Assembly (NCBI RefSeq): GCF_009833965.1
Contig: NZ_CP047165.1
Span: forward strand, 930,001 to 994,000
Reading direction: 5' to 3'
Source of the DNA: Pelistega ratti
GTDB lineage: Bacteria > Pseudomonadota > Gammaproteobacteria > Burkholderiales > Burkholderiaceae_B
DNA length: 64,000 nucleotides
Part shown: positions 11,711 to 32,776 of the stretch, piece by piece
Position numbering within the stretch: position 1 is the stretch's first letter
Layout of the letters: the number at the start of each line of letters is the position of its first letter
Program-made: the position numbers and the translations under genes
The notes under the pieces: model-generated
Seen by the model: the letters and a program-made list of their open reading frames with translations, nothing else
Told to the model about the DNA's origin: nothing
The model's database searches: none

Positions 11711-12499
11711 TCATTTAATAGTTCTTTCTTCAAAATTTTTCCATTCATTAAATAATCCATTACCCAAATATTCAATTAAGAATAGTGGAAATGAACTTAA
11801 AACTAGCAGTTTATGAGCTGGATTAATATATTTTTCCAACTGCATTTTATAAATTTCTTTCTGATTAAAATTTATAGTTGATTTATATTCTACAGGGAAT
11901 GAAAAATTATCTAGGATTAAATAATTAATAGATTTAAGGTGTGACGAAAAAATAGAAAACCAATCATTCTTAGTTAACTTAATAATCTGTTCAAATTTCT
12001 TATTACAAATTCTGCTGACATACGTTTTATAATGCTCATCAGGAGATATATCAACAATCACACATTCTTCATGGATAGGATGCTTATAAGACTCAATCAT
12101 CGGGTAATTTATATATAGCTTACCATTCCCCGTTTCATCATTAAATAGGTTAAGCATATCATTTATACAGTCAGGGTATTTGCTGGCGACAGTATCATGA
12201 CCATCATAATCAAAAAAAAGAAATATCTCACTAATTTGATTACGTTGGAGTATTTGAAGTTCAGGATCAGCACTACTTTTCTGCTGTAAGCTGATCTCTT
12301 TAATCAATGCAAATGTATCTAAAAATTCAGAACCAAAATCCTCATAATCAGTAAATTTCTTATAGAGGTTATAGATATTTAAGCATATTGGAAATATTTT
12401 CATATTTTTAGATACAAATTCTGTTTTGAATTTATTCAAAATACGAGGGTCTAGCTTTTCTCCTTCTGTAATACACAAAACAAAATTTTCTTTATCCAT
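11711..12499 (-). CDS. Toprim/RloB-like putative nuclease, partner of the upstream ATPase
   Basis: 262-aa protein, not clearly in a named family by eye. It starts with ITEGEKLDPRIL (Glu12, Glu14), continues with EIFLFFDYDGHDT (Asp97, Asp99, Asp102), and has INYPMIESYKHP (Glu136). This E...DxD layout with a late 'P-x-x-E' strand is the pattern of Toprim-like proteins such as RloB, AbiLii and the DUF4435 protein AriB of PARIS. The ATG overlaps the end of the ATPase gene by 8 bases, and AGGG sits 7 bases upstream, so the pair is one operon. By analogy it may be the toxic effector (nuclease) held by the ATPase; this is inference. GC is lower than in the neighbouring core genes. Confidence 0.6.
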   Translation of the reverse strand: MDKENFVLCITEGEKLDPRILNKFKTEFVSKNMKIFPICLNIYNLYKKFTDYEDFGSEFLDTFALIKEISLQQKSSADPELQILQRNQISEIFLFFDYDGHDTVASKYPDCINDMLNLFNDETGNGKLYINYPMIESYKHPIHEECVIVDISPDEHYKTYVSRICNKKFEQIIKLTKNDWFSIFSSHLKSINYLILDNFSFPVEYKSTINFNQKEIYKMQLEKYINPAHKLLVLSSFPLFLIEYLGNGLFNEWKNFEERTIK

Positions 12500-13616: not shown

Positions 13617-13918
13617 AGCGATTACTCCTAGTCTCTACAGTCTTTTCATTCTACCATAAACATCCGTAGAAAAAATACGGCAAAGTATTTTTGTATAATT
13701 TATTATACAAATAGGAAAGTAAACATATTATCCCTAAAAGCTATTACTCTTTTGGGCAAAATCACATTATTTTTAACAAACATAAAATACTTTCCTTAGA
13801 AAAAATGTTATTTACCTACATTTTTTCATTGGAAAAAGTGTTACCCACTATCAATTTATCATTGATAAAAATATGCAATTCTCTTAAAATAAAGTAAACT
13901 GTATCAAAAGAGTCAATA
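13617..13918. other. AT-rich spacer between defence genes
   Basis: About 300 bp with no coding character and AT over 70 percent. It contains the upstream region of the ATPase operon (minus) and ends at the ATPase gene fragment at 13919. No repeats or RNA genes were recognised. Confidence 0.4.
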
Positions 13919-13990
13919 ATGCAACGCGATATTTTAAACAAACTCACTCAATGGAAAGCCAAACCAAATCGTAAACCATGGCAGCCATAA
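13919..13990 (+). pseudogene. N-terminal fragment of a DUF4143/AAA_14 ATPase gene
   Basis: A 23-codon frame starting MQRDILNKLTQWKAKPNRKP then WQP and a stop. This matches the conserved N-terminus of the bacterial AAA_14/DUF4143 ATPases (M-x-R-x-I-x(5)-L-x(2)-W-K), which normally continue with a Walker A region. Nothing of the rest is found downstream. It is a deletion remnant inside the defence island. The family assignment rests on this short motif alone. Confidence 0.5.
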
Positions 13991-14063
13991 AAATAATGAC
14001 TGCCATTATTTAATAACGTTTAATCTAGTAAATCTACACCATTAAAACTCAGTAACTATCCAC

Positions 14064-14360
14064 TCAATAACTACACAAAACAGGCTTTATAGAAAAGTCC
14101 GCTTTTTGAGAAGCTATCCATAAATCATAATCAGCCTGTTGGTGTAACCAACTCTCAGGACTAGGGCTATTTTCACCTAACCAACGATGCAATCGTAATG
14201 CCATATCAGCACTAATACTAGATTTACCATTTAATAAGCGAGAGAGTGTTACACGATTAACCCCTAGCTGTTTAGCTGCTTCAGTAACACTTAAACCAAG
14301 TGCAGGTAAAATATCTTCACGAATAACTTCAGCAGGGTGTGGGGGATTATACATACGCAT
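14064..14360 (-). CDS. higA: HigA-family antitoxin (XRE/HTH)
   Basis: Antitoxin and autorepressor of a HigBA type II module, 98 aa from the second ATG. The typical start MYNPPHPAEVIREDILPALG is followed by the XRE helix-turn-helix SVTEAAKQLGVNRVTLSRLL (about 25-45) and the HigA C-terminal helix SPESWLHQQADYDLW. ATG 14360 fits the AGGAG better (6 bases) than ATG 14363 (3 bases). The toxin gene directly upstream is broken, so the antitoxin is orphaned. Its last residues (KPVLCSY) differ from the usual end and may be remodelled. Confidence 0.87.
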   Translation of the reverse strand: MRMYNPPHPAEVIREDILPALGLSVTEAAKQLGVNRVTLSRLLNGKSSISADMALRLHRWLGENSPSPESWLHQQADYDLWIASQKADFSIKPVLCSY

Positions 14361-14369
14361 CATAAACTC

Positions 14370-14619
14370 CTAATGATAGTCTTGATAATCAACAATTTCT
14401 GCGTGCCCATTCTCCAATTTAAAGGTAATACGCCAATTACCGTTAACTTTAACACTCCAATGATTGGCAAGATGACCTGATAAAGAGTGTAAATTAACCG
14501 GGAATATTCATATCTTGAGCAGTTTTACTACTATCTAACCGAGCTAAAATTCGTTTTAGTTTAGCTGAATGTACAGCAATAATACCAGCCGTTGAGCCAA
14601 TTTTATAAAACTTTTCTAC
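14370..14619 (-). pseudogene. higB: HigB-family toxin, truncated and frameshifted
   Basis: Reading the minus strand, one frame gives VEKFYKIGSTAGIIAVHSA and continues to QDMNIPG, where it hits TAA. Shifting frame by one base restores NLHSLSGHLANHWSVKVN through to EIVDYQDYH and a TAG at 14370. Both halves match the HigB/RelE-fold toxin. The first residues (normally MIxSFKDKDTE) are also missing and a TGA precedes the visible part. The toxin is therefore inactive. A sequencing error could explain the frameshift but not the missing start. Confidence 0.85.
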
Positions 14620-14752
14620 TCACCACCCCTACACTCTCCCTCTATTTTAGGTACAATAATCATCATCTTAAAAAACAGTAAAATGCAGTATAAAAACTGT
14701 TTTATTTCAATACAATATTGATAATTTACTTTTTGTTACAAAAGGATTTTAT

Positions 14753-16460
14753 ATGACTTCGCCACACGACACGACACGACACGACACGACACGACACGAC
14801 ACGACACGACACGACACGACACGACAACGCACAACTAGCACAGGCATTTCTCACTGAGCTAGACAAAAAGCTCTGGGACGCTGCCGACAAACTACGCTCC
14901 AAAATAGATGCCGCTAATTACAAACATATTGTATTAGGGCTTATCTTCCTCAAATACATTTCCGATAGCTTTACCGCCCAACAACAAAAACTCACCGCTA
15001 TCCTACAAGACCCAGAGAACGAACTCTATCTTGACCCCTCTTTCTACGATAGCGAGACCGATTACCAAACCGCCTTACAAAACGAACTAGAGAACCGTGA
15101 TCTCTACACCCAAGACCATGTTTTCTGGCTACCTCGTCAAGCCCGTTGGGAAGAAATTCAAGCCGTTTCCTCACTCGATGCCGGTGCAGAGCTACCATGG
15201 GGAGGCAAATTTAACGGTATTACTCAACTCATTGATAATGCCTTTGATGCCATTGAAAAGGACAACGAACAACTACGCGGAGTCTTAGAGCGTATCTCTC
15301 GCTTTGCCATCAGTGATGAAGCCTTACGCGGTTTAATCATGCTCTTTTCTGATACCAACTTCACCCACCCACAATACCATGGCAAACCCATTCCACTAGG
15401 AGCAAAAGACATTCTCGGTCATGTGTATGAATACTTCTTAGGACAATTTGCACAAGCAGAGGGTAAACGCGGTGGCGAATACTTTACCCCAAAATCCATT
15501 GTTAGCCTTATTGTCGAAATGCTCGAACCCTATCAAGGACGCGTCTATGACCCAGCCATGGGTAGCGGTGGTTTCTTTGTACAAACTGAACGCTTTATCC
15601 ATGCTCACCAAGGCAATATCAACAACATCAGTATTTACGGACAAGAAGCCAACCCCACCACGTGGAAACTAGCTGCCATGAATATGGCAATCCGAGGGAT
15701 AGAGTACAACTTTGGCAAACACCATGCCGACACCCTCACCGATCCTAAGCACCTTAGCACCAAGATGGATTTTATTATGGCAAATCCACCCTTTAATATT
15801 AGCGATTGGTGGCAAGAAAAACTCGCTGATGATCCACGTTGGCAATACGGTATCCCCCCGGCAGGCAATGCTAACTTTGCATGGTTACAGCACATGATTT
15901 ACCACCTTACCCCTAACGGCAAAATGGCACTCTTACTGGCTAACGGTTCAATGAGTAGCCAAACCAGTGGGGAGGGAGAAATTCGCCGTGCCATTGTACA
16001 AGCCGATTTAGTCGAAACCATGGTTGCCCTACCCGGTCAGCTCTTTACCAATACCCAAATCCCCGCTTGCATTTGGATTATCAATCGGAATAAACCCCGT
16101 AAAGGTGAAGTCCTCTTTATTGATGCTCGCCAAATGGGTGAAATGAAAACCCGTGTACTGCGTGATTTTTCAGACAAAGACAAAGCCTATATTGCCGATA
16201 CCTACCACCATTGGCAGCAAAACAAAGACTATCAAGATATACCTGCTTTCTGCAAATCCGCTACCCTAGCCGAGATTGAGGCAAATGATTTTGTACTTAC
16301 ACCGGGACGTTATGTCGGAGCAGCAGAACAAGAAGATGATGGCATACCCTTTGCGGAAAAAATGAAAGAGCTAACAGCATTGCTAAATGAGCAATTTACA
16401 CAAAGTGCTGTATTAGAAGTAGAGATTAAAAAGAATTTAAAGGAGTTGGGGTATGAGTGA
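14753..16460 (+). CDS. hsdM: Type I restriction-modification methyltransferase HsdM, phase-variable and out of frame here
   Basis: N6-adenine methyltransferase subunit of a type I system. The body of the gene is intact: LWDAADKLRSKIDAANYKHI near the N-terminus, the family sequence EYFTPKSIVSLIVEML, SAM motif DPAMGSGGFF (about 15549-15578) and catalytic NPPF (15783-15794). The only plausible start, ATG 14753 with AGGA upstream, is followed at once by a 5-bp repeat tract (14764-14826). In the present length the ATG frame ends at TGA 14855-14857. The body lies one base out of that frame, and its own frame has no start between the tract and the internal ATG 15339. One unit more, or two fewer, would restore a protein of about 569 aa. 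hsdS overlaps its end by 8 bases. Confidence 0.9.
14764..14826 (+). repeat. Pentanucleotide simple sequence repeat (ACACG)12.6 in hsdM
   Basis: 63 bp of perfect ACACG repeats (12 full copies plus 3 bases) start 11 bases after the hsdM start codon. No reading frame on the plus strand through it has a stop. The tract acts as a frame switch for the downstream gene because 5 is not a multiple of 3. Confidence 0.97.
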
Positions 16461-17847
16461 TTGGAAAAAATATAAGTTAGGTGAATTACTTGAACTGGTA
16501 ATAGACCATCGAGGAAAGACACCTAAAAAATTAGGGTTTGACGACTTTCATTCTAATGGATATCCTGTTTTATCAGCAAAACACGTTAAAACATCTGGAT
16601 TAATAAATTTAGATGTAATGAGATTTGCTAAACAAGAAATGTACGAAAAATGGATGAAAATTCCTACTAAAAAAGGTGATATTGTATTAACTTCAGAAGC
16701 TCCATTAGGAGAACTTTTCTATATTGATGGATCAACTCAGTATTTATTAGGTCAAAGAGTTTTTGGTCTTAGACCTAATACAACTTTAGTTAACCCTATG
16801 TATTTATTCGCTTGGTTAAGCTCTTCAAAGGGACAATCTGCTTTACAAGCAAGAGCTACAGGATCAACCGTACAAGGTATTAAGCAATCTGAATTATTAA
16901 ATATAGAGTTATCTATTCCAAATTTAATAGAGCAGGTAAAAGTTGCAGATAATTTATTTAGTTTAAATAACAAAATCCAACTCAACACCCAAATCAACCA
17001 AACACTAGAACAAATCGCACAAGCAATTTTTAAAAGCTGGTTTGTTGATTTCGAGCCAACTCGTGCCAAAGCCACCGCCCTTGCAGCAGGTAAAACCCAA
17101 GCCGAAGCCGAACTATCCGCTATGCAAGTCATCAGCGGAAAAACAGCCGAAGAACTCACTACCCTTGCCCAAACCAACCCACAACAATATACCCAACTCA
17201 CCGAAATCGCCAAAGCCTTTCCAAGTGAGTTAGTAGAAACAGAAATGGGGGAAATACCGTTGGGGTGGGAAAGGACCTCAATTACTGATAAAAGGATTTG
17301 TGAAATTATTAAACCTAAAATTCATATATTTGAAGGTGAAAAAAACTATATTGCAACAGCAAATATCTCAAAAAATTCTATTGTTGGTACTTTAGAAAAA
17401 ATCACTTATGAAAATAGACCCTCAAGAGCCAATATGCAACCAACTATTAATAGTATTTGGTTTGCTAAAATGGTTGGAGAACATAAAGCAATTTTAATTG
17501 ATAAAGATGATAAACTCTTATTAGAAAATACTATTCTATCCACAGGATTTTTAGGTTTAAAACCTCAAGAAAACACAAAGTCATTTCTTTATTGCTTTAT
17601 AAACTCTGACTACTTTATATTAAGTAAAAATCAACTAGCTACAGGGGCAGTTCAAATTGCGTTAAATAACAGCTCATTTGCAAAAATTGAAGTAATACTA
17701 CCCAAAAAAGAAATTCTTAAAGTATTTGAGGAAACCGTATCTAGTCTATATTCTAAGATTTCACAAAATCAAAGAGAAAATAAAGCATTATCAGAAACAA
17801 GAGATTTATTACTATCAAAATTATTAAGTGGAGAAATTCATTTATGA
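16453..17847 (+). CDS. hsdS: Type I restriction specificity subunit HsdS
   Basis: DNA recognition subunit, 464 aa, with two target recognition domains (about 1-165 and 265-425). These are separated by a conserved helical spacer containing NQTLEQIAQAIFKSWFVDFE (about 180-205) and closed by a second helical repeat (NQRENKALSETRDLLLSKLL) with the typical end SGEIHL. It sets the sequence specificity of both methylation and restriction. It overlaps hsdM by 8 bases and the following gene by 4 bases, so expression depends on the operon. TRD codons are more AT-rich than those of hsdM and hsdR, the usual sign of TRD exchange. The recognition sequence cannot be predicted by eye. Confidence 0.95.
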   Translation: MSDWKKYKLGELLELVIDHRGKTPKKLGFDDFHSNGYPVLSAKHVKTSGLINLDVMRFAKQEMYEKWMKIPTKKGDIVLTSEAPLGELFYIDGSTQYLLGQRVFGLRPNTTLVNPMYLFAWLSSSKGQSALQARATGSTVQGIKQSELLNIELSIPNLIEQVKVADNLFSLNNKIQLNTQINQTLEQIAQAIFKSWFVDFEPTRAKATALAAGKTQAEAELSAMQVISGKTAEELTTLAQTNPQQYTQLTEIAKAFPSELVETEMGEIPLGWERTSITDKRICEIIKPKIHIFEGEKNYIATANISKNSIVGTLEKITYENRPSRANMQPTINSIWFAKMVGEHKAILIDKDDKLLLENTILSTGFLGLKPQENTKSFLYCFINSDYFILSKNQLATGAVQIALNNSSFAKIEVILPKKEILKVFEETVSSLYSKISQNQRENKALSETRDLLLSKLLSGEIHL

Positions 17848-18464
17848 TGAATTGGGTACTTGAATCAATGAAAAGCTTGCCTAGTTTTCAGAATTATCAA
17901 TCGCATATTGATAGTATCATTGAAAATGTATATAAACATCCAACTTTTAGTATCGAACTATGTAAATCAGTTACTGAAGGAATATGCAAAACTATTTTAA
18001 TTGATAAAAATATTACTGATATACCAAAAGATTTTCCACCTCTTGTCAGTAAAACTATAGATAACTTAAATTTAAATGATCATATAGATAAAGAACACTT
18101 ATCAGTTTTATGCACAAGGATGAAAGGTGCATTTAGCTATATTTCTGAGATTAGAAATAAAACTGGAAATTTTGCTTCACACGGACAAGATATTGAACAT
18201 CAAGGAGCAACAAGTGATCTATCTATATTTGTACTTCATTCTACTAATACTATTTTAGGATTTATTTTACACTTTTATGCTACAACAAACGATTATCGTA
18301 CAAGTAAAAGAATTAGGTATGAAGATTATCAACAAATTAACGATCTTATTGATGAAGATAATCAAGTTAAAGCTAAATATAATATTTCATATTCAAAAGC
18401 TCTATTTGATCAAGATTTGGATGCTTATAAAGAGCTATTAATAGAGTATGAACAACAAGAATAG
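17844..18464 (+). CDS. Abi_C (abortive infection C-terminal) domain protein in the hsd operon
   Basis: 206-aa protein whose C-terminal half resembles the Abi_C domain. The diagnostic stretch SEIRNKTGNFASHGQD (about 108-123) corresponds to the conserved RNK-x-G-x(2)-HG signature and is followed by an amphipathic helix with a hydrophobic core (SIFVLHSTNTILGFILHF). Such proteins are often encoded between hsdS and hsdR. The biochemical role is unknown; a function in phage response is inferred from the company it keeps. ATG 17844 overlaps the hsdS stop by 4 bases; ATG 17847 is an alternative. hsdR follows after 9 bases. The gene is as AT-rich as the TRDs, unlike hsdR. Confidence 0.7.
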   Translation: MMNWVLESMKSLPSFQNYQSHIDSIIENVYKHPTFSIELCKSVTEGICKTILIDKNITDIPKDFPPLVSKTIDNLNLNDHIDKEHLSVLCTRMKGAFSYISEIRNKTGNFASHGQDIEHQGATSDLSIFVLHSTNTILGFILHFYATTNDYRTSKRIRYEDYQQINDLIDEDNQVKAKYNISYSKALFDQDLDAYKELLIEYEQQE

Positions 18465-18473
18465 AGGAATAAT

Positions 18474-21400
18474 ATGTTAAATGAACAGATGATTGAACAA
18501 TTAACCCTTCTTCGCCTACAGAACCTTGGCTGGGAATACCACTTCGGCAAAGACTTACCCGTAGCAGATGATGGTATCAATCCCTTTGCCCGTGGTGATG
18601 TAAGTGGTGTTGTTTTACTCCCCGTCTTACGTCAAGCGATTGTACAGCTTAATCCTACCCTCCCACCTGATGCAGTGGATACGGTCGTCAATACCATCAC
18701 CAAAAGAGAACTGGGGGAATTAGTCATCCGTAATCAAACCTTTTATGAAATGCTACGCAATGGTGTACCTGTTCAGTATCAACAAGAGGGTGAGCAGAAG
18801 ATAGAACGAGCCCAATTAATTGATTTTGAAAATTACCGCCATAACCGCTTTATCATCATTAATCAACTGGATATTCGTACTCATAAGGGTGGTAAGCGTA
18901 TTCCCGATATGATTGGTTTTGTCAATGGTTTACCGCTCTTGGTCTTTGAGCTTAAAAATCCACTTACCCCATCAGCCGATTTAGAAAAAGCCTTTAACCA
19001 GCTCAAAACCTATCAAGAGGAAATCTCCGATCTTTTTGTCTATAACCAAATACAGATTATCAGTGATGGATTCAATACACGCATTGGCTCACTTTCGGCA
19101 GACTTTAACCGCTTTATGCCATGGAAAGTCGTCAATGAGAAAAACCAAAGCCAACGTGAACATTTTGATGATGAGCTACAAGCCTTAGTACAGGGGTTAC
19201 TACAACCTCGTCATTTACTTGACTATATCCGCTATTTTATCCTCTTTGATCATAATGCCAGCGGTCAATTGATTAAGAAAATCGCCGCCTATCATCAATA
19301 CTATGGGGTGAATGAAGCGGTAGATTGCACACTCTATGCCACCAGTGAAAAAGGCGATCAACGCATTGGGGTGATGTGGCATACACAGGGTTCGGGTAAA
19401 TCCATTTCTATGCTCTTTTATGCGGGTAAATTATTAGCACAGCCCGAATTAAATAATCCCACTATCGTTGTTGTTACCGATCGTAATGACTTAGACGGTC
19501 AGTTATTCCAAACATTCAGTGCCGGTAAAGCTATCATCAAGCAAGAGCCAAAGCAAGTTGCCGATCGTGAAGAACTACGCAGAGTGCTCAGTGAGAGAGA
19601 AGTCGGTGGGGTCTTTTTTACTACAATTCAAAAATTTGCCCTCAATGAGGAAGAAAGCCATTTTCCAGCCCTCAATACCCGTTCTAATATTATTGTCATT
19701 AGTGATGAAGCACACCGTTCACAATATGGTTTTACAGCCAAATACCATCAGGGGAAATTACAAGCAGGCTATGCCCGTCATTTACGCGATGCTTTACCTA
19801 ATGCCTCATTTATCGGATTTACTGGAACACCCATTAGCCTAGAAGATAAGGATACGCAAGATGTATTCGGTCGCTATGTTTCTATCTATGATTTACAAGA
19901 TGCGGTAGAAGACGGTGCAACCGTTCCTATTATCTATGAAGCAAGGCAGATTAAGCTAAGAGAGATTGACAATCCAGAGGTCTTATTTGAAGATATTGAT
20001 GAGTTTATCGAAGAAAATAATCCTACTTTAAATCTACGCGAGCAATTACTCGGCAGTACCACCCGATTACAAGAACTCGCACAAGACTTGGTACAGCATT
20101 TTGAACAACGCAATACCCTATTTGATAGTAAAGCCATGGTCGTTGTCTCTAGCCGTAAAATTTGTGTGGATTTATTTCATCAAATCGCCATATTAAGACC
20201 GGATTGGGTCAGTGATGATATTCTGCAAGGGACGATTAAAATTATCATGACGGGTTCAGCCAGTGATCCGCAAACCATGCAACCGCATATTTACTCTAAA
20301 CAAGAAAAACAAATTCTTGAAAAACGTTTTAAAGACCCTAATGATCCCCTCAAAATCGTCATTGTGCGTGATATGTGGCTGACGGGTTTTGATGCACCCT
20401 GCTGCAATACCATGTATATTGATAAACCCATGAAAGGACATAATCTCATGCAAGCCATTGCACGGGTTAATCGTGTCTTTGCAAACAAAAGCCGTGATAA
20501 TGGTGGGCTTATTGTGGATTATATTGGACTGGCTGAAGAATTACGTCAAGCCACACAGCAATATACCAATGCACAGGGTAAAGGCAAAATTACCGATGAT
20601 GTGCATGATGTCTTTCATAAAATGCAGGAACATTTAGAAATTGTCCGCCAGCTCTTTGCAGAAAAGATTAAAGGTAGAACTATTGATATTCCAAGCATTC
20701 TGGCAATTCAAGAACCACAGGCAATGCTGAATGCCATTCGCCAAGCGGCTAATCATCTACTCGCCCTTGACCATCTACCCGCTAGCGATTCTGCTGTTGC
20801 TCGTTACTGGGCAAACCATAAAGAGACTGAGCCTCGCCGTAAGACTTTTATCAAAACCGTAGCTCTCATTAAAAAAGGCTACTCACTCTGCGGAGCATTA
20901 CCTCAAGCCAAAGCACTTGAACAAGAAATCGCCTTTTACGAGGCAATCCGTACGATTGTGAATAAACGTAGTCATAGCACCACCAATCAAGCCGAGCGCC
21001 GCCTACAACTTACTGCACTGATTAATCAAAGTATCATTGCCGATGGTGTGGTGGATTTATTCGATTTACTGGGTAAACCCCAAGCCCAAATCAGCTTATT
21101 ATCCGAAGAGTTTTTACAAAGCATCAAAAACAGTGATAATAAAGATTTATGGGTACTTGCCATTGAACGCTATCTACGCCAACAAATCAGCATAGGGGCA
21201 AAAACTAACCTCACGATTCAAAAAGATTTTGAGGAACGCTTACAAGATGCCTTAAATCAATACCATAACCATAATTTAACCATCTTAGATATTTTGGATG
21301 AATTATTCAAAATGAGCCAAGATATTCAAGAAAGGATAGAACGGGGTGAAAAATTAGGATTAAGCACAACAGAGCTGGCTTTCTTTGATGCCTTAGCGAA

Positions 21401-21644
21401 TAATGACAGTGCCAAATCCTTACTCGGTGATGAAATCCTCAGCAAAATCGCTAAAGAAATCACCGACCAGCTTCGCCGTTCCATCAGTATTGACTGGCAA
21501 TATAAAGACGCTGTCCGTGCTAGAATGCGTACATTGATTAGACGCACCCTGCAAAAATACAAATACCCACCTGATAAAGAGCAAGAAGCCATTGATTTTG
21601 TATTAAAACAAGCCGAAGAAGTGGCAAGTGAATTGGTGGTGTGA
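18474..21644 (+). CDS. hsdR: Type I restriction endonuclease HsdR
   Basis: Motor and nuclease subunit, 1056 aa, normal length. The PD-(D/E)xK nuclease is visible as PDMIGF...VFELKNP (Asp145, Glu159, Lys161). The SF2 translocase has Walker A TQGSGKS (about 304-310), DEAH (411-414), the motif GFTGTPI, and later RDMWLTGFDAP and a QAIARVNRVF motif VI. A helical C-terminal part for HsdM binding follows. The start ATG is preceded by AGAGGAATAAT. It is intact. When hsdM is off, HsdR should be unable to assemble into an active R2M2S complex, so cells lose both activities together and avoid self-restriction. Confidence 0.97.
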   Translation: MLNEQMIEQLTLLRLQNLGWEYHFGKDLPVADDGINPFARGDVSGVVLLPVLRQAIVQLNPTLPPDAVDTVVNTITKRELGELVIRNQTFYEMLRNGVPVQYQQEGEQKIERAQLIDFENYRHNRFIIINQLDIRTHKGGKRIPDMIGFVNGLPLLVFELKNPLTPSADLEKAFNQLKTYQEEISDLFVYNQIQIISDGFNTRIGSLSADFNRFMPWKVVNEKNQSQREHFDDELQALVQGLLQPRHLLDYIRYFILFDHNASGQLIKKIAAYHQYYGVNEAVDCTLYATSEKGDQRIGVMWHTQGSGKSISMLFYAGKLLAQPELNNPTIVVVTDRNDLDGQLFQTFSAGKAIIKQEPKQVADREELRRVLSEREVGGVFFTTIQKFALNEEESHFPALNTRSNIIVISDEAHRSQYGFTAKYHQGKLQAGYARHLRDALPNASFIGFTGTPISLEDKDTQDVFGRYVSIYDLQDAVEDGATVPIIYEARQIKLREIDNPEVLFEDIDEFIEENNPTLNLREQLLGSTTRLQELAQDLVQHFEQRNTLFDSKAMVVVSSRKICVDLFHQIAILRPDWVSDDILQGTIKIIMTGSASDPQTMQPHIYSKQEKQILEKRFKDPNDPLKIVIVRDMWLTGFDAPCCNTMYIDKPMKGHNLMQAIARVNRVFANKSRDNGGLIVDYIGLAEELRQATQQYTNAQGKGKITDDVHDVFHKMQEHLEIVRQLFAEKIKGRTIDIPSILAIQEPQAMLNAIRQAANHLLALDHLPASDSAVARYWANHKETEPRRKTFIKTVALIKKGYSLCGALPQAKALEQEIAFYEAIRTIVNKRSHSTTNQAERRLQLTALINQSIIADGVVDLFDLLGKPQAQISLLSEEFLQSIKNSDNKDLWVLAIERYLRQQISIGAKTNLTIQKDFEERLQDALNQYHNHNLTILDILDELFKMSQDIQERIERGEKLGLSTTELAFFDALANNDSAKSLLGDEILSKIAKEITDQLRRSISIDWQYKDAVRARMRTLIRRTLQKYKYPPDKEQEAIDFVLKQAEEVASELVV

Positions 21645-21737: not shown

Positions 21738-21963
21738 TAATAAGTACACAAAAATATCACTCTACATATTATTTTAATCATTTTTTCTACGACTATTTTT
21801 ATTTTAAATATAAGCTATTCATTACGACACTTAGAAATCTTAGGGTTTTCCCTAATGGATAAATTTATCTCCATCTACTTCCTCTTGTCTTTAAATCAGT
21901 GAATAATATAAAGTCTATCTAGGCTATCTATTTAATACACTACGTTATATTCATGAAGGAATA

Positions 21964-24657
21964 ATGATGAAATATATACTTGGGGGTTTTCTTTTATATC
22001 TATCCATCCAGAGTGCTTTTGCTCAGCCATTAAACAACGAAACATCACAGCAGTGTCTTTATCAGATAATGACACCTCAGCTCAATATTGAAAAAAACTG
22101 TTTACTATGTGCTGATGAGATCAATAATCCACAACAAGGGGTTGCTTATCACCTAAGCATTGACTATATCAACACCCATTATCCTCAAGCAGAGATTCAA
22201 TACAACACAGAAAATAAACCCAAAAAAGCAATATTTTCTCATCCATCTTGGGGAGAGGTAGAAATTACCTACGACAAAAATCAAAACCCCTATTCTATTA
22301 AATCATCTACACTTGATGATGGTAACCGATTTTATGATTCACTTGTTGCCATACAACCTGAATGTATTACCCCTGAGCAGAATCATACTAACCCCTTTAT
22401 TCATCTAAAGGATAATCGTCTTATTTTTAACAATAATTTATATTTAAAACAAATTAATAAAAATAAACTTGAACATTCTCTTATTCTTGAAAAAGAAGAC
22501 ACGCCCATTTGGGCACAACACCGTTTTTATCAAGAAAATGGGATGTTAGAGAAAGAAGTTTTCGAGTTTTATCAAGAAAACAAACGCATAGCCTATCACT
22601 ATACCTACAATGATAAAAAACAGTTAATTATCGCCGATCAAACTATTAACGCTATCAATAAACCCAAGAAAAAAGAAACACATCAATTCTATTATGCATG
22701 GAATACGGATGGTAGTAGCAATGCCTATGCGATTGATGGAAAGACGGTTAAACCGACTACATTTTCAAAAGCATATGGAGTCATTCTACATCCTCCCATA
22801 ATATTAAAGCATAATAGCATTCCTAGTCGTATATATGCTGCTGCCTCTTATCATACTAAAGAACCTTTTGTGCAATATATAAATAAAAATGGTATTCGTT
22901 ATAAAAAAATTATCGGTGATAAAACAGTTTCTTTTACATATCAAAACAACCGACTTAGTACAGAAACTACCCATATCCCTAATCAACCAATCATTAAGCG
23001 TCATTACTACTATTCGGGTATTATGCCTATTGCCTTTACAGAGCAAATCTTTCCAGCTGATACCACTGATATAGAAAAAGCCTCACCTATAAGCACCCAC
23101 ACTTTTTATATCCATAATGATCATATCGGACAACCTTTTCTAGTGTCTGATGAAGAGCAAAATATCCGTTGGGCAGCTTACTATACCCCTACAGGAGAGG
23201 CTCAAATACTCAAAGCAGATATTGAGTTTAACTTACGACAGCCTGGGCAATACTATGATGCAGAAACAGGTTTACATGATAATTACCTACGTACCTATGA
23301 CCCTAAGGCAGGGCATTATCTAGAGGCTGACCCTATTGGACCAACAGCAGACAATAGCCCCTTTGGCTATGCCAAGCAGCAACCCCGTCATTTTATCGAC
23401 CCCTTTGGTTTATTACTATTTGCGTTTGATGGTACTCAAAATAATGCAAGTATAGAGACTAATGTTTGGAAATTTTATAAGCTTTATGAAGGCAAAGAAA
23501 ATATTGATAAGTTTTATGTAGAAGGACCCGGTGCTACACCAGAAAAAGCAAAAGATGATCCTTGGTGGGGAATTGTTGATATCCCATCAAGTGGAGCTCT
23601 ATATGGCTCTGATAGATACAATATTCTACACAAACAATTCAAACACTTTATCGAAAATATGCAATCCAAAAATGGGAATTTTGATGAAATCACTCCTATT
23701 GATATTATTGGTTTCTCACGAGGTGCAGCTATTAGTATGATATTCTCTAATTATCTAGCTAATTTTGTAAAAAATGGATTATTTAGTTTTCAAGGTAGTT
23801 ATAATGGGAAAGATACTTCTATTCAAACATGTGTTGATTTACGTTTTATCGGTTTATTTGATGCAGTTGCTCAATTTGGAGCAAACGGTATATCAAACAT
23901 TGAACATATCTACACCGCACAACCATCATGGGAATTAATTGCTCATGCTGTGGCTCTTAATGAATATCGTTCGCTTTTTCCCTTTACTACCTATAAAACA
24001 AGTCGTATCAAAAATCCTACTGGAGACCCAAATAATCCTTATATGATTGTAGAAAATCCCAATGTCATAGAACAAGGTTTTTTAGGGAATCATACGGATA
24101 TTGGTGGTGGTACAAAATACGATGATATAGATAATAAATATAATCCCAAAAAAGATATACCTGGTGATTTAGGTAATATTACCCTCGCATGGATGCATAC
24201 CCAAGCCTCTCAACTTGGAGTAGATTTAGCCCCATTATCCTCAGCAATAGAAGGTACTAAGATAAATTCAACAACAAATCAAGAAGAAAAAACTATATTA
24301 GCATTAAATAAAGTTAATAACCCTCTACTACATGGTACCTATGGTGAATACTCTGGAGTCACAGATTATGAACCCTATAATTATACAAAACGTACAGCTG
24401 AAAGAGAATATCAATATCCGAGGCAGACTCATGGAGAGGGAAAACAAAGTGAGTTAGCACATGTTGGTGAAAAAGTCAGAGAGAAACACCTTAATGCCGC
24501 TAATGTTCAATTTATTAATATTTATAAAAGCTCCCTACCTACAAAAATTAATATCTATGGTTATATTGATGCAGAAAAATATATTAATTGGTTAGAAAAA
24601 GAGCTTAATTGGAATTCTAATCTTAGTGTAGATAAAGATAGCTATAATAAATCCTAA
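21964..24657 (+). CDS. Sec-exported RHS-repeat protein with C-terminal Tle1-type (DUF2235) phospholipase domain
   Basis: 897-aa polymorphic-toxin-like protein. Residues 1-21 form a Sec signal peptide (LGGFLLYLSIQSAFA). The middle (about 130-400) carries weak YD/RHS repeats, and the RHS-associated core runs from FYIHNDHIGQPFLVSDEEQ to YDAETGLHDNYLRTYDPKAG and ends at DPFG (479-482), the usual junction before a variable toxic tip. The tip (483-897) begins LLFAFDGTQNN and has the alpha/beta-hydrolase elbow GFSRG (Ser585), FDAVAQFG (Asp633) and NHTDIGGG (His710), the layout of DUF2235/Tle1 phospholipase effectors. No PAAR or VgrG gene is nearby, so export looks Sec-dependent rather than classical type VI. 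GAAGGAATA precedes the ATG. Paralogous membrane proteins follow directly. Confidence 0.85.
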   Translation: MMKYILGGFLLYLSIQSAFAQPLNNETSQQCLYQIMTPQLNIEKNCLLCADEINNPQQGVAYHLSIDYINTHYPQAEIQYNTENKPKKAIFSHPSWGEVEITYDKNQNPYSIKSSTLDDGNRFYDSLVAIQPECITPEQNHTNPFIHLKDNRLIFNNNLYLKQINKNKLEHSLILEKEDTPIWAQHRFYQENGMLEKEVFEFYQENKRIAYHYTYNDKKQLIIADQTINAINKPKKKETHQFYYAWNTDGSSNAYAIDGKTVKPTTFSKAYGVILHPPIILKHNSIPSRIYAAASYHTKEPFVQYINKNGIRYKKIIGDKTVSFTYQNNRLSTETTHIPNQPIIKRHYYYSGIMPIAFTEQIFPADTTDIEKASPISTHTFYIHNDHIGQPFLVSDEEQNIRWAAYYTPTGEAQILKADIEFNLRQPGQYYDAETGLHDNYLRTYDPKAGHYLEADPIGPTADNSPFGYAKQQPRHFIDPFGLLLFAFDGTQNNASIETNVWKFYKLYEGKENIDKFYVEGPGATPEKAKDDPWWGIVDIPSSGALYGSDRYNILHKQFKHFIENMQSKNGNFDEITPIDIIGFSRGAAISMIFSNYLANFVKNGLFSFQGSYNGKDTSIQTCVDLRFIGLFDAVAQFGANGISNIEHIYTAQPSWELIAHAVALNEYRSLFPFTTYKTSRIKNPTGDPNNPYMIVENPNVIEQGFLGNHTDIGGGTKYDDIDNKYNPKKDIPGDLGNITLAWMHTQASQLGVDLAPLSSAIEGTKINSTTNQEEKTILALNKVNNPLLHGTYGEYSGVTDYEPYNYTKRTAEREYQYPRQTHGEGKQSELAHVGEKVREKHLNAANVQFINIYKSSLPTKINIYGYIDAEKYINWLEKELNWNSNLSVDKDSYNKS

Positions 24658-24829
24658 TCAGTTTATAGGGTTCCACAATTTTAATCTATGATAAAAGGGG
24701 TTATTTTTAACCTAGTAAAAAGGATAGAAACGATAATATTTATCCATACTAGATTTATGTAAAACGTAGTGTTTTATAGCTGTATTATTTTGAGTATAAG
24801 ATGTATAGTGAATATAAGGAGAATAAGTG

Positions 24830-25852
24830 ATGGAAAAACAAGGTTATCATCAACAGAAAGATTTAGTTTTAGAAAAAGGAATGTCAGATAATGAGGATAT
24901 AAAAAAGTTATTGGAGGGAAGTGTCGATAAAAGAGTTGAAGAAGAAATAAATAAAGCATCCAAACAGGAAAAAACATTATCTACTATAGAGAAATTTTGG
25001 ATAACAAGATTTTTTACTTTTTTCCTTACGATAGTATTTGTTACGAATTTTGCATTTATTGCGATAGAAAATGATTTTAGTGTGGAATTTTTTAATTCCA
25101 TATTAAATATGATGTTAACAGTTATTCCGCTTAGTCTAATATTTGCAGCTTCTCGTGCATTATTGGATAAACGACCTTTAGATGCTTTTTTATTCCATGA
25201 AGTAGGTATATATTTATTGATTACTTTTTTGATGAGTTTGTCAGTATCTTCTAGGTATTCATCAGAAGATGTATCAGAAATTTTTGCTGTATTATATTTT
25301 ATGTCTATTCCTATTATGGTAGAGGCGGTTATTAGTTTTTATACTAAATCCTATTTACAGAATAGTGTCTATCTAAAAGGATATAAAGGATATTTAAGAA
25401 TCTTGTGGAGTTATCTTGTTAGCTTATATTTTGTATTGATGTTAAGTATTTTTAGATTTTTGGCTAGTTTATCTGTTGATCTAAAAGATTTGTGGGCAAT
25501 GATTCATCAGCAGTTTTTATTATTTATACCTTTAATAATGGGGCTTTCTTTTATTCGATATAAATTGTCTCGACTAAAAGCTAATAGCTTAAATCTTATT
25601 CTTTTTTGTACGATTGCTTTTCTAGGCAGTGCTTTTTTTAGTAAAGAGGCACAAGTGGTTTCGGCTAACTTGAGTAATCTATCTTATGAAAAATGGCGAC
25701 AAGTGAGTGAAATTTTATCGCCTCCAATAATACCGTATTGGGGAATAGATTATGGTATTCGTAGTGTAGTGTTATGGTTTCTAGTGGCCGAGGGAATATT
25801 ATTTTTGGTTTTATTATGGCAAGATATCTTTCATTCAGAAGATAAAAAGTAG
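24830..25852 (+). CDS. Multi-pass membrane protein A (paralogue 1 of 4), function unknown
   Basis: 340-aa integral membrane protein with a charged cytoplasmic N-terminal segment (about 1-57) and about eight predicted transmembrane helices. Motifs shared with its three neighbours are EAVISFYTKSYLQ, YKGYLRILWSYLVSLYFVL, PLIMGLSFIRYKL...LKANSLNL and VVLWFLVAEGILFLVLLWQD. I do not recognise a named family. It starts 172 bases after the RHS-phospholipase gene on the same strand, a position often held by immunity genes; a role as immunity protein is inference only. ATG 24830 has AGGAG 8 bases upstream; a GTG one codon earlier is an alternative. Its closest paralogue is D, its mirror image. Confidence 0.75.
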   Translation: MEKQGYHQQKDLVLEKGMSDNEDIKKLLEGSVDKRVEEEINKASKQEKTLSTIEKFWITRFFTFFLTIVFVTNFAFIAIENDFSVEFFNSILNMMLTVIPLSLIFAASRALLDKRPLDAFLFHEVGIYLLITFLMSLSVSSRYSSEDVSEIFAVLYFMSIPIMVEAVISFYTKSYLQNSVYLKGYKGYLRILWSYLVSLYFVLMLSIFRFLASLSVDLKDLWAMIHQQFLLFIPLIMGLSFIRYKLSRLKANSLNLILFCTIAFLGSAFFSKEAQVVSANLSNLSYEKWRQVSEILSPPIIPYWGIDYGIRSVVLWFLVAEGILFLVLLWQDIFHSEDKK

Positions 25853-25953
25853 TTTATTTATATTTGAAATAATGTAGGAATAAAAAGAAATGTTTTATGT
25901 ATCGTAAAGGGATATATAAAACCTTTATGTATATTAAGCAAGAAGGATAGGCA

Positions 25954-26901
25954 ATGATACAACACAATAATGATGATCAGAAAGACTTATCTATAGGTAG
26001 TGTGGATAAACAAACAGATAAGCAAGAAAAAGAGATGATAATAGAGACAAAAAAATTACTCACTATAGAAGGAGATTGGCTATTTAGGTTTTTTATTTAT
26101 TTTTTAATAATATTATTTTCTATTGAACTAGTATTCGTTATTCAGATAGACGATTATAAATGGCAATCTATTAATCATCTCTTTATCAGTATAGAAGTCT
26201 TATCTGTAATTATTCTATTAAGCGTAATGTTAGCAATTTCTCGAGCAGGATTAAATAAATATCCTTTAGGAGCTTTTGTCTGTAATGCTTTTTTTGTTTT
26301 GTGCGTAAGTTCTTTTGTTTTGAATTCCAGTGGGGCTTTTGGTAATCCAAAGCCAATAGAGGTTACTGCTTATGTATTATATGGTTTGTCTATTCTCTTG
26401 GTAGCGGAGGCAATCATTAGTTTTTATAGTAAATCTTATCTACAAACTTATTTACATCAAAAGGGGTATAAAGGTTATTTAAGCATTTTAGGAAGTTATA
26501 TAGTGAGTTTATATCTTGTATTAGTAGCAACTATTTCGATGTCTGCGATAGATTTACCTTTGAATAAAAAAGATGTAAATATTATTTATTATCAACAGTT
26601 TTTATTATTTTTACCATTAGTGATATGTCTTACTATTATTCGATATAAACTGCCTCGTTTAAAAGCAAATAGTTTAAATCTTGTGATTTTTTGTATTATT
26701 GTTTTTTTAGCGAGCTACTTTTTAGGTGAAGATGCCTATCAAGAATGGCAGCAAGCAAGCGAATCGCTAATCACTCTTTTAGTACCTTATTGGGGGACAA
26801 GCTATGGAATTGCCAATGTAGTATTATGGTTCTTAGTGGGAGAGGGGATATTATTTTTGGTTTTACTATGGCAAGATTTAGTACAGGAGAGTAAGGGATA
26901 G
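25954..26901 (+). CDS. Multi-pass membrane protein B (paralogue 2 of 4), function unknown
   Basis: 315-aa member of the same membrane family, with about eight helices and a shorter charged N-terminus (MIQHNNDDQKDLSIGSVDKQ). The C-terminal about 90 residues (from FIRYKL/IIRYKLPRLKANSLNL through GEDAYQEWQQASESLITLL to the end) are nearly identical to paralogue C, while the N-terminal half differs at many positions. This mosaic suggests recent conversion or duplication of the 3' end. It lies 101 bases after A with AAGGATAGGC upstream of the ATG. It probably forms a unit with A. Confidence 0.75.
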   Translation: MIQHNNDDQKDLSIGSVDKQTDKQEKEMIIETKKLLTIEGDWLFRFFIYFLIILFSIELVFVIQIDDYKWQSINHLFISIEVLSVIILLSVMLAISRAGLNKYPLGAFVCNAFFVLCVSSFVLNSSGAFGNPKPIEVTAYVLYGLSILLVAEAIISFYSKSYLQTYLHQKGYKGYLSILGSYIVSLYLVLVATISMSAIDLPLNKKDVNIIYYQQFLLFLPLVICLTIIRYKLPRLKANSLNLVIFCIIVFLASYFLGEDAYQEWQQASESLITLLVPYWGTSYGIANVVLWFLVGEGILFLVLLWQDLVQESKG

Positions 26902-26964
26902 TTTATTGATGAAAAAAAGTAATAATAACAGTGAGTTAAATACTGAATTTAACGTATAGTGTTT

Positions 26965-27401
26965 TAGGCGATATCCTCAATTTGCAAATAAGTCAAAAGC
27001 ACCATAATAACTACTATAAACTTTACTCATTTTTGTAGATGATGATGAGAATAGTATTAACAGACCTACTTTGGGAGCAACTTTAAACAACGCTAAAAAA
27101 TCATGACTGCCACAAATGGAAAAATAATTGTATGGTTATGGAAGCTATTATCCGTTGATACCCATGGATACCCGATCTATTTTAAAATCACTGGGGGTGA
27201 AGTCCATAACAGTTAAGTTGTACAGACTTTAATTGAAGCAGTTGGTAAAGGTGATTATTTTATGGTTGATAAGAGGTATGATTCAGACACTATCCGAGCC
27301 AAAGAACATGGGATGATTTCCGTTATTTTTCGAAGGAAAAATACAAAACAATCCAACCAAGAATTTGATACTTATCTATAGTGAATTGAGGGTATAGCCT
27401 A
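26965..27401. mobile_element. Internally deleted IS5-family element at the centre of the palindrome
   Basis: Bounded by imperfect 18-bp inverted repeats, TAGGCGATATCCTCAATT (26965-26982) and AATTGAGGGTATAGCCTA (27384-27401), 16 of 18 matching when reversed. About 437 bp, too short for a functional IS5-like element of about 0.9-1.3 kb. It carries the two transposase fragments described separately. The right flank has about 24 bp between the repeat and the palindrome arm that the left flank lacks. Confidence 0.7.
27045..27381 (+). pseudogene. IS5-family transposase remnant
   Basis: The first piece (27045-27160) gives MRIVLTDLLWEQL, stop, then TTLKNHDCHKWKNN and VMEAII, the typical N-terminus. 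After an internal deletion a second frame (27154-27381) gives VDTHGYPIYFKITGGEVHNS, an in-frame TAA, then VVQTLIEAVGKGDYFMVDKR and YDSDTIRAKEHGMISVIF, ending EFDTYL. The DDE region around GGEVHNS and DKRYDS is recognisable, but the catalytic C-terminal Glu region is gone. It is inactive. Confidence 0.8.
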
Positions 27402-27487
27402 ATCAGTATTCGATCCGTTAACTAAAATACCATACGTTAAATTCAGTATTTAACTCACTGTTATTATTACTTTTTCTCATCAATAAA

Positions 27488-28438
27488 CTATCCCTTACTC
27501 TTCTGCACTAAATCTTGCCATAGTAAAACCAAAAATAATATCCCCTCTCCCACTAAAAACCATAATACTACATTGGCAATTCCATAGCTTGTCCCCCAAT
27601 AAGGTACTAAAAGAGTGATTAGCGATTCGCTTGCTTGCTGCCATTCTTGATAGGCATCTTCACCTAAAAAGTAGCTCGCTAAAAAAGCGATGATACAAAA
27701 AATCACAAGATTTAAACTATTTGCTTTTAAACGAGGCAGTTTATATCGAATAAAAGCAAGACATATCACTAATGGTAAAAATAATAGAAACTGTTGATAA
27801 ACCATTATCCATAAGTCTTTTGTATCAATAGGAAAATATCTAATAAACACAAAAATAGTTGCCATCAATACAAGATATAAACTCACTATATAACTTCCTA
27901 AAATACTGAAATAACCTTTATACCCCTTTTGATATAAATAATTTTGTAGATAAGATTTACTATAAAAACTAATGACTGCCTCTATTACTACGAGAATAAA
28001 CAACCCATATAATACATAAGTAATCATATCTACCGTCTGCATACGAGATCCAAAAGCCTCTACTAAATTTACAAAAAAAGCACTAATAAAAAATACAAGA
28101 AAAACATTACATACAAAAATTACTAAAGGATATTTATGCAACCATGTACGTAGAATAGCAACTAGTAAACTTAAAGGAATACTCTCAGAAAATCCCTTTT
28201 CATTATCAAGTAAAGAACGAAAAAACTCCCATCTATAATCATCTTTTTGAATAATAAATATAAAATTAAGAGAAAATAATATCGTCACAAAATAAACAAA
28301 AAACCTAAATACCCAATTCTTTTCTATAGACAATAGTCTTTCTTTATCTGCACCCACATCATTTTCTTGCCTATCTATTTGTTTATCCACACCGTCTATA
28401 GATAAACCTTTCTTATCATCATTATTTTGTTGTATCAT
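27488..28438 (-). CDS. Multi-pass membrane protein C (paralogue 3 of 4), function unknown
   Basis: 316-aa mirror copy of B. The N-terminus (MIQQNNDDKKGLSIDGVDKQ) and helix pattern are the same, and the last about 90 residues are almost identical, while residues about 40-130 have diverged (EKGFSESIPLSLLVAILRTW against the B version). About eight helices. It keeps an intact frame and the family motifs AVISFYSKSYLQ and GSYIVSLYLVL. Its promoter-proximal gene is D, 102 bases upstream. Retention of intact frames in all four copies argues for selection rather than junk duplication. Confidence 0.75.
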   Translation of the reverse strand: MIQQNNDDKKGLSIDGVDKQIDRQENDVGADKERLLSIEKNWVFRFFVYFVTILFSLNFIFIIQKDDYRWEFFRSLLDNEKGFSESIPLSLLVAILRTWLHKYPLVIFVCNVFLVFFISAFFVNLVEAFGSRMQTVDMITYVLYGLFILVVIEAVISFYSKSYLQNYLYQKGYKGYFSILGSYIVSLYLVLMATIFVFIRYFPIDTKDLWIMVYQQFLLFLPLVICLAFIRYKLPRLKANSLNLVIFCIIAFLASYFLGEDAYQEWQQASESLITLLVPYWGTSYGIANVVLWFLVGEGILFLVLLWQDLVQKSKG

Positions 28439-28540
28439 TGCCTACCATCCTACTTACTTGGTATATAAAGGTTTTACTTATTCCTTTACAATATATAAAA
28501 CATTTCTTTTTATTCCTACATTATTTCAAATATAAATAAA

Positions 28541-29479
28541 CTACTTTTTATCCTCTGAATAAAAGATATCTTGCCACAATAAAGCCAAAAATAATATTCC
28601 CTCGGCTACAAAAAACCATAGCATAATATGACGAATAGCATAACCTGTTTTCCAATACGATATAGACGGAGGCTGTAAAGTTTCACTTATTTCTTGCCAT
28701 TCCTCATAAGGTAAATGACCTAAATAAGCAGAAAATATTTTTGCATCCTCACCAACAAAGATTCCCCAAAAAAGGACAATAGAACAAAAAATAATCAGAT
28801 TTAATTTATTCGCTTTTAAACGAGGTAATTTATACCGAATAAAAGAAAACCCTACTATTAAAGGAATACATAATAAAAACAGTTGATAAAATACTACCCA
28901 TAAATCTTTTTTATAAATAGATAACTCATCAAGAAGATTAAAAACACACACTATCAAAACAAGATATAAACTTAATGAATAACTCCCCAAAATTCTCAAA
29001 AATCCCTTTAAACCACCTTGATAGAGTCTATCCTGTAAATAAGATTTCGTATAAAAACTAATCACCGCTTCTGCTACAATAAGTATAAAAAGACCTTTTA
29101 GTATAGTAACAACAACAGACATTGTCTTTACAGGAATTCCAAAAGCCCCTGACAAATTTCCTAAGAAATGACTTATAAAAAATACAATAACAGCATTACA
29201 AGTAAAAATAGTTAAAGGGAATTTATAGAATCCTGAACGTAAAATAGTAAATATTAAGCTACCCGGAATAATTATTATCATCACATCTGACATAAGAGAG
29301 CTCAATGATTGCCTACTAAAATCATTTGTTCCCATAACAGTAACCAATATGATAGAAAAGACCATTATCCAAGAAAAAGTGAAAAATCTAACTATTCCAT
29401 ACTCTTCTACAGCAGATAATTTTTTCTCTTGCTGAAACACATTATCCTTTTGCTCTTCCTCTTGCTTATCTATTTTCAT
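28541..29479 (-). CDS. Multi-pass membrane protein D (paralogue 4 of 4), N-terminally shortened
   Basis: 312-aa mirror copy of A. The core matches A in motifs (EAVISFYTKSYLQ, GLKGFLRILGSYSLSLYLVL, FIRYKLPRLKANKLNL, FFVAEGILFLALLWQDI) and in the shared end SEDKK. The A-type N-terminus (first about 29 residues) is lost. The equivalent DNA upstream (about 29480-29690) still shows a decayed start reading M-E-Q-stop and the remnant NFILEKES resembling A's DLVLEKGM. The present ATG 29479 restarts translation just before the first helix and its ribosome binding site (AAGGATGATATAAAA) is moderate. It is unknown whether the shortened protein works. Confidence 0.7.
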   Translation of the reverse strand: MKIDKQEEEQKDNVFQQEKKLSAVEEYGIVRFFTFSWIMVFSIILVTVMGTNDFSRQSLSSLMSDVMIIIIPGSLIFTILRSGFYKFPLTIFTCNAVIVFFISHFLGNLSGAFGIPVKTMSVVVTILKGLFILIVAEAVISFYTKSYLQDRLYQGGLKGFLRILGSYSLSLYLVLIVCVFNLLDELSIYKKDLWVVFYQLFLLCIPLIVGFSFIRYKLPRLKANKLNLIIFCSIVLFWGIFVGEDAKIFSAYLGHLPYEEWQEISETLQPPSISYWKTGYAIRHIMLWFFVAEGILFLALLWQDIFYSEDKK

Positions 29480-29726
29480 TTTTATATCATCCTTATCAAA
29501 TTGTACAGTTTTTAAAGTTAAACTCTCTCTATCTTCATTACCTAATTAGACTATTCCTAAAACCGTAGCTCTTCTTAGTATTATTTTGAACACTAGATCT
29601 ATTAATAACATAATAGATTCCTTTTCTAAAATAAAATTTCTTTTATCCCTACTACCTTATTGTTCCATTAATTCCTCCCCCTTATATTCACTATACATCT
29701 TATACTCAAAATAATGCAGCCATAAA

Positions 29727-29784
29727 ACACTACGTTTTACATAACAGCTTGATAAGGTAAAAAGCACCATCTTATACTTCAATT
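29727..29784. mobile_element. MITE-like element, copy adjoining the right arm
   Basis: In reverse complement it reads AAATTGAAGT...TTACCTTATCAAG...AAAACGTAGTG. This aligns with the reversed element at 10925-10981 (AAACTGAAGT...TTACCTTATCAAC...AAAACGTTGC) across most of its length. Its left end overlaps the end of the right arm, so the duplication boundary cuts inside the element. Only this side keeps the whole copy. Confidence 0.45.
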
Positions 29785-32356: not shown

Positions 32357-32776
32357 GTGTACTTACTCGATACTAATATTATCAGCGAAATTAGAAAATT
32401 ACCCAAAAATAAGTGTCATCAAGGTGTTGCCAACTGAGTTCAATCGACGTCGAGAGAACTTATGTTTACCAATGCAATTATCATGATGGAATTAGAACGA
32501 GGAATAATCTCTGTCGAACGTAAAGATACTGTTCAAGGTAATCTATTACGATACTGGTTTGAGATAGAAGTAAAACGAGCTTTTCACCACAAAACACTCA
32601 AAATTGATGAACATACAGCCCAAATTTATGCAAAATTACATATCCCTAACCACACACCTGAAAATGATGCATGGATTGCCGCAAGTGCTATTCAACATCA
32701 TTTAATTTTAGTTACTCGAAATACAAAAGATTTCGTACATACAGGTGTAAGATTATTTAATCCCTTTGAAAAATAG
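32357..32776 (+). pseudogene. VapC/FitB-like PIN-domain toxin with in-frame stop
   Basis: GTG 32357 (AAGGG upstream) reads VYLLDTNIISEIRKLP, the PIN N-terminus with catalytic Asp5. A TGA at 32435-32437 replaces the usual Trp (VAN-stop-VQS). After it the frame stays open for MELERGIISVERKD, HIPNHTPENDAWIAASAI and LILVTRNTKDF, including the conserved acidic residues. An internal restart at ATG 32462 would lack the first catalytic Asp. The ribonuclease is therefore inactive unless the stop is read through. Together with the broken antitoxin upstream it is a dead type II module. Confidence 0.8.

Follow-up and report, generated by a model that had tools for sequence, protein, structure and literature searches.

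A mirrored array of four paralogous membrane-protein genes beside an RHS-phospholipase gene in Pelistega ratti: a candidate lineage-specific polyimmunity locus

In Pelistega ratti, a stretch of 64,000 nucleotides (contig NZ_CP047165.1, positions 930,001 to 994,000; referred to as the window, with positions counted from its first nucleotide) carries four genes for paralogous membrane proteins, named A, B, C and D here, that are arranged in mirror order A-B / C-D downstream of a gene for an RHS protein with a Tle1-like phospholipase tip (RHS1). We read this array as a lineage-specific homogeneous polyimmunity locus whose products would shield the cell from RHS proteins that carry a Tle1-like tip, both its own and those of related competitors, and we put the probability of this reading at about one half. 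An initial annotation had interpreted the genes as a multi-copy immunity set; this interpretation gains from the lack of a described family for A-D, from ratios of nonsynonymous to synonymous substitution rates (dN/dS) below 1, from a second RHS locus with copies of the family and from a rare motif shared with the RHS gene, but general co-occurrence of the family with RHS-Tle1 proteins was not found.

The mirror order of the array was confirmed by inverted repeats and by the reading frames, all four of which are open. A (24830-25852, 340 amino acids) and B (25954-26901, 315 amino acids) are encoded on the forward strand, and C (27488-28438, 316 amino acids) and D (28541-29479, 312 amino acids, with a shorter N-terminus) on the reverse strand. 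The ATG of A is preceded by AAGGAG, has a GTG immediately before it at 24827, and stands 172 bp from the stop codon of RHS1, the distance that was first reported. The inner inverted-repeat arms lie at 26357-26967 and 27422-28032 (611 nt, 91% identity) and the outer arms at 24755-24882 and 29617-29744 (128 nt, 75%), and further inverted repeats pair 25281-25616 with 28777-29112 (336 nt, 74%), 25634-25931 with 28462-28759 (298 nt, 82%), and 25941-26172 with 28220-28451 (232 nt, 77%). An alignment of the left half (24755-26967) to the right half in reverse complement (27422-29744) gave 1687 identical positions over 2211 aligned bases, which is far above chance. The match upstream of D that had been described is present; however, it extends beyond the position of A's start codon, where the DNA of D runs into stop codons, and the frame of D begins later, at 29479. 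The mirror centre (26968-27421, about 450 bp) holds short frames that we take to resemble a decayed transposase; two pieces of it gave no Pfam match.

A-D are non-identical paralogues of one family lying side by side, with pairwise protein identities of 46-68%. As proposed, B pairs with C, and this is the sole clearly closer pair (68%); the proposed pairing of A with D is seen in DNA order, in the spacers and in a common insertion that precedes the last helix, but overall protein identity does not bear it out (A-D 49%, A-C 50%, A-B 46%). Divergence had been placed outside the common motifs; it is better described as a mosaic, in which identity between the mirrored halves varies from 57% to 99% by region. 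The first 99 bp are 83% identical, most of the A/D N-terminal part 57-65%, the stretch from the end of A through the A-B spacer 85-91% (the spacer itself 91%), the B/C N-terminal part 58-83%, and the last 300 bp of B/C, continuing into the downstream DNA, 97-99%. Because the spacers are more alike than the coding N-termini, it appears that the ends and spacers were homogenised or the middles exchanged, and the mosaic suggests more than simple divergence after one duplication, which would not produce such a pattern. The motifs quoted for the family are present but variable, with FIRYKLSRLKAN in A, IIRYKL in B and KANKLNL in D. A dN/dS comparison, recommended in the initial annotation, gave point estimates below 1 for all six pairs of A-D (0.43-0.63 over the full length; NG86 method). 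When the proteins were divided at the motif AVISFY, the N-terminal side gave 0.54-0.88 and the C-terminal side 0.25-0.70, with the higher value in the N half in five of the six pairs.

Hydropathy analysis was used to predict the topology of the four proteins. Eight helices, the number first assigned to all of them, are predicted in A, B and D, but seven in C. If both ends are placed inside, the loops of A, B and D that would face the cytoplasm are the more basic ones, and the longest outer loop, of 27-40 residues, is predicted to precede the last helix. Two AlphaFold2 runs returned low mean predicted local distance difference test scores (47.6 and 49.1), and for this reason fold comparison was not used.

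The identification of the neighbouring gene as an RHS gene with a Tle1-type phospholipase tip was upheld. RHS1 (21964-24657, forward strand) matches PF09994 (DUF2235) with 76.1 bits against a cut-off of 27, and its RHS core matches TIGR03696 with 54.7 bits. The tip contains the motifs GFSRG, GLFD and NHTDIGGG, starting at residues 583, 630 and 709, and the Ser, Asp and His of these motifs are presumably the catalytic residues. The motif regions align to chain 4o5p_A, which we take to be Pseudomonas aeruginosa Tle1, with a weak whole-chain E value of 0.008. Judged by eye, the N-terminus of RHS1 resembles a signal peptide.

The host genome (2,326,689 bases, one contig) contains a second RHS locus 1.1 Mb away, and copies of the membrane family are found at both. 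Five RHS matches were counted in this genome, and the three among the matches listed represent two genes, RHS1 and RHS2; further RHS places may exist. In RHS2 (L061:4605-7364, equal to C1:2062604-2065363 of the host genome), DUF6531, the RHS shell and the final 20 residues of the Tle1 tip are retained, and the catalytic part is gone. Against a congener's protein of 1147 amino acids, residues 1-898 of RHS2 align to 1-772 and residues 899-918 to 1128-1147, with about 355 residues missing; residues 88-889 of RHS1 align to 383-1145 of the same protein, with about 295 shell residues missing. RHS1 and RHS2 end in a YxxWL- or YxxFL-type tail, and so does each of the 14 RHS proteins that were inspected in relatives. 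These alignments and the common tail indicate that both host RHS genes probably descend from RHS-Tle1 proteins and have undergone complementary losses.

Two membrane-protein genes, X and Y, follow RHS2 at 2.6-4.1 kb; we estimate that a location this close to an RHS gene would come about by chance at roughly 0.3-1%, counting 8 kb, or a small number of such places, out of 2.33 Mb. Since A-D lie 0.17-4.8 kb after RHS1, all six copies found in the genome are located within 5 kb of an RHS gene. Y has an open frame with six or seven predicted helices, depending on the hydropathy threshold, and X is broken, a change of frame separating its C-terminal part from the rest. The two are paralogous (E 1.2e-29). 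When X/Y were aligned with A-D, none of 200 block shuffles reached the real score in any of 16 settings (z 3.7-11.0), and a profile-profile comparison gave an E value of 4.4e-4 with a probability of only 34%. Landmarks common to both groups are FIRY, or a near form of it, and LWxxxxEG in the last helix; by sequence, the relation of X/Y to A-D appears to be distant. At the RHS2 locus the catalytic tip is lost and one of the two membrane genes, X, is broken as well, and we count this in favour of an immunity role.

A 17-bp motif, TAWAACGTAGTGTWTTA, is found as an exact match at three places in the host genome: before rhs (21933-21949, reverse strand), before A (24760-24776, forward strand) and before D (29723-29739, reverse strand). 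The sites before A and D are duplicates of one another, and the independent evidence is therefore the agreement of the rhs site with the A block, which covers 15 of 17 positions and ranks first among 65 upstream regions taken from host-genome stretches (runner-up, 14). The motif is a suggestive link between the rhs upstream region and both ends of the array. The sole site with one mismatch lies elsewhere in the host genome (C1:33431-33447, locus L015), near a frame that resembles, by eye, a helix-turn-helix transposase.

The view that A-D belong to no described family was supported by database searches, which returned no convincing match in Pfam, NCBIfam, PHROGs, PADLOC or PDB sequences. Pfam gave no rows for A, B and C and a single row for D (E 0.046, below the family cut-off); no match to the DUF443 family appeared, but a distant kinship with it is possible. 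NCBIfam and PADLOC had no match for A-D, PHROGs gave rows at E 0.059 or weaker, and PDB sequences searched with a profile of A-D (A1) gave nothing at E 1. A search of open-licence literature, at the level of titles and the beginnings of abstracts, found no description of the family. A search of the host genome with C recovered A, B and D plus one chance-level match, and a second profile that also included X and Y (A2) recovered all six copies. No match was found in genome contigs scanned with profile A1 and with the Tle1 tip, in viral contigs or phages searched with C, or in plasmids searched with C and with Y. Profile A1 matched the host genome only, both among 61 relatives and among 268 genomes of the bacterial family. 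Profile A2 matched the host and one other among the 268 family genomes, the host and three others among 369 genomes of the class, and the host and one other among 399 genomes of the order. The three class matches contain stop codons, and those from the family and order extend over 77 and 42 positions within proteins for which 10 and 11 helices are predicted; all were judged to be chance matches. Y alone matched 10 other genomes of the 61 at E 0.1 or better; seven of these matches cover about residues 160-254 of frames of 325-348 amino acids, a region in which Y has a sub-cut-off FAD synthetase row, and the matches in relatives were read as chance similarity to RibF-like proteins.

Homogeneous polyimmunity loci have been described and are viewed as fast-changing in the portions of a survey considered here (Zhang et al. 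2012, PMC3482391), and parts of a second source describe membrane immunity genes that occur in strings (PMC9484751). The array resembles the former in that several diverged paralogues of one family stand near a polymorphic toxin, and a link to polymorphic toxin genes is found in the RHS-Tle1 gene upstream of A and in the distant pair near RHS2. The prominent homogeneous loci named in those portions of the survey are formed by SUKH, Imm6, Imm11, Imm28, Imm33, Imm36 and Imm41 (PMC3482391), whereas the array is mirrored and encodes polytopic membrane proteins. Among lipid-acting toxins, the survey includes DUF2235 (Tox-ABhydrolase-1) combined with RHS repeats, and in the survey table the DUF2235 row has a dash where the next row names immunity families, so that none is named at that place for RHS-DUF2235 (PMC3482391). 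In the sections of PMC9484751 drawn on, the closest working analogue is the strings of TsaI (DUF443) beside TspA in Staphylococcus aureus. Similar to A-D, these are many diverged polytopic membrane immunity paralogues by one toxin gene, and each combines a conserved part with a variable one; unlike A-D, which have about eight helices and a more conserved C-terminal half, TsaI has five predicted helices and an N-terminal conserved block and belongs to a type VII secretion system (T7SS) with a depolarising toxin. The EsaG and TipC immunity arrays described in the same sections share with A-D homology blocks within genes and at gene ends that permit recombination between paralogues, but they represent other families, serve T7SS toxins and are tandem rather than mirrored (PMC9484751).

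Several observations weigh against an immunity role, and the following are of this kind. The toxin of the Tle1-Tli1a pair of P. aeruginosa shares the phospholipase name Tle1 with the Pfam family of the RHS1 tip; in the parts of the source consulted, Tli1a is an outer-membrane lipoprotein with DUF3304 and its toxin interacts with VgrG of the type VI secretion system (T6SS; PMC13133936). A-D are polytopic and have no Pfam match over the cut-off, and a lipoprotein with DUF3304 is not found among them. Without its roughly 295 shell residues, RHS1 may be degenerate. The T6SS sheath (VipB/TssC) had no match in the host genome, with Escherichia coli matched among 14 control genomes. A tannase-like gene stands between RHS2 and X/Y, and a hidden Markov model of A-D (A1) scored Y at -5.0 bits, less than each of the six top-scoring shuffles out of 500, and X at 17.7 bits, exceeded by two of 500 shuffles of X. 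The dN/dS values are point estimates, and the closest pair, B-C, is the exception to the trend between the halves (N half 0.57, C half 0.70). The motif TAWAACGTAGTGTWTTA was first picked out by eye; one of 300 shuffles equals the rhs match of 15, the 10 genome sites found with up to two mismatches are equalled by 10 for a reversed-pattern control, and no site with up to two mismatches was found in 10 loci of relatives. The co-occurrence test put forward with the initial annotation failed in one direction: the RHS protein was matched in 145 of the 268 family genomes, host included (E 1e-10 or better, some matches covering the RHS core alone), and in the 144 others no convincing member of the membrane family was found. 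Likewise, no convincing relative was found with profile A2 in 267 other family, 368 class and 398 order genomes, and at 14 loci inspected in 14 of the 144 genomes (the strongest matches and some lower ones) no gene of the A-D kind stands beside RHS-Tle1. If A-D are immunity genes, the family is private to the host species as far as sampled, which fits fast-changing polyimmunity loci and weakens its claim to be the immunity of Tle1.

Among the three nearest downstream frames at the 14 loci, the only protein with at least three predicted helices is NnrS (L056), 1.5 kb off and on the opposite strand. The inspected relatives thus have RHS-DUF2235 proteins with no evident immunity gene next to them. 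The occurrence of RHS-Tle1 without an A-D-type neighbour at these loci indicates that the tip can exist without the membrane family, and a role of the family as general immunity partner of RHS-Tle1 was rejected because it is absent from RHS-matching relatives. At 12 of the 14 loci, one of the three closest downstream frames has about 560-600 amino acids and was taken as argS on the basis of start and length, with a Pfam test in L053 only; in L057 the argS-like frame comes after further RHS genes, and L056 differs. In the host, the interval at the usual RHS position, between argS and the DUF1840 gene (L089:4935-5186), contains no long frame, and the presence of an RHS gene there was rejected. 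In one related genus (L057, L059 and L060), additional RHS genes stand next to one another ahead of argS, with two RHS-Tle1 genes and two more RHS frames in L057, and one congener has its RHS-Tle1 gene divided between two neighbouring frames (L055:6858-10365).

The absence of the membrane family from RHS-bearing relatives also bears on a possible, if doubtful, alternative, in which A-D are a species-specific membrane family that underwent inverted duplication in a variable, defence-rich region, have no functional tie to RHS, and lie near it by hitch-hiking on an island. The surroundings are indeed variable and contain type I restriction genes together with a PADLOC candidate pair, and GC content is 29.4% in the array and 28.4% in X-Y, compared to 36.6% in the window. 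Hitch-hiking accounts less readily for a family that is present at two RHS loci 1.1 Mb apart, with no copy found elsewhere in the host genome, and for a motif common to the array and the rhs upstream region. The same restriction and PADLOC candidate genes upstream would suit an array that acts at the membrane as an independent gene set for phage defence or another conflict; we consider this very unlikely, as A-D have no PADLOC or PHROG match and a second copy pair lies near RHS2.

The failure to find a T6SS sheath gene, on which T6SS delivery of RHS1 was rejected, raises the question of export. RHS1 resembles a Sec substrate by eye, and an export helper would then be needed; A-D could instead be accessory factors for RHS export, anchoring or release. 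Their membrane topology is suitable for such a task, and Y is retained next to RHS2, which has no catalytic tip. We regard this explanation as quite unlikely, because RHS relatives in 144 other genomes do without the family and four diverged copies are not obviously needed for a helper.

Under the polyimmunity reading, the RHS protein would leave the cytoplasm through its signal peptide and its tip would attack membrane phospholipid from the periplasmic side, with each membrane protein acting against a different tip, either by blocking it or by preventing it from docking at the inner membrane. Divergence among the membrane proteins is greatest in the N-terminal half, while spacers and C-termini are more uniform, and inverted-repeat recombination may have amplified and shuffled the copies. 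In its fullest form, this model holds that an RHS phospholipase is exported by a signal peptide, free of a T6SS, and is controlled through one shared operator together with private eight-helix inner-membrane shields, that the N-terminal halves are specificity modules exchanged via the inverted repeats, and that the immunity family was built by a single species and is missing from relatives with the same toxin. As a whole, this model is speculative and rather unlikely to hold.

Other features of the window were recorded. The defence-like region spans 11711-21644, with a PDC-M12A/B-like pair followed by type I restriction genes; an Abi_C-like gene (17844-18464) lies ahead of a restriction subunit, and a methylase-like frame at 15339 is possibly shortened. 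A pertactin-type autotransporter with a long EPTEPTEP-like repeat tract is encoded at 8202-10703. At 32462-32776 there is a PIN-domain protein that appears to be N-terminally shortened, its match beginning at profile position 32.

If A-D do not protect, their linkage at two RHS loci and the common motif require another reason. If they do, they would constitute an unrecorded polytopic immunity family, and the array would show how one species builds a private polyimmunity set.

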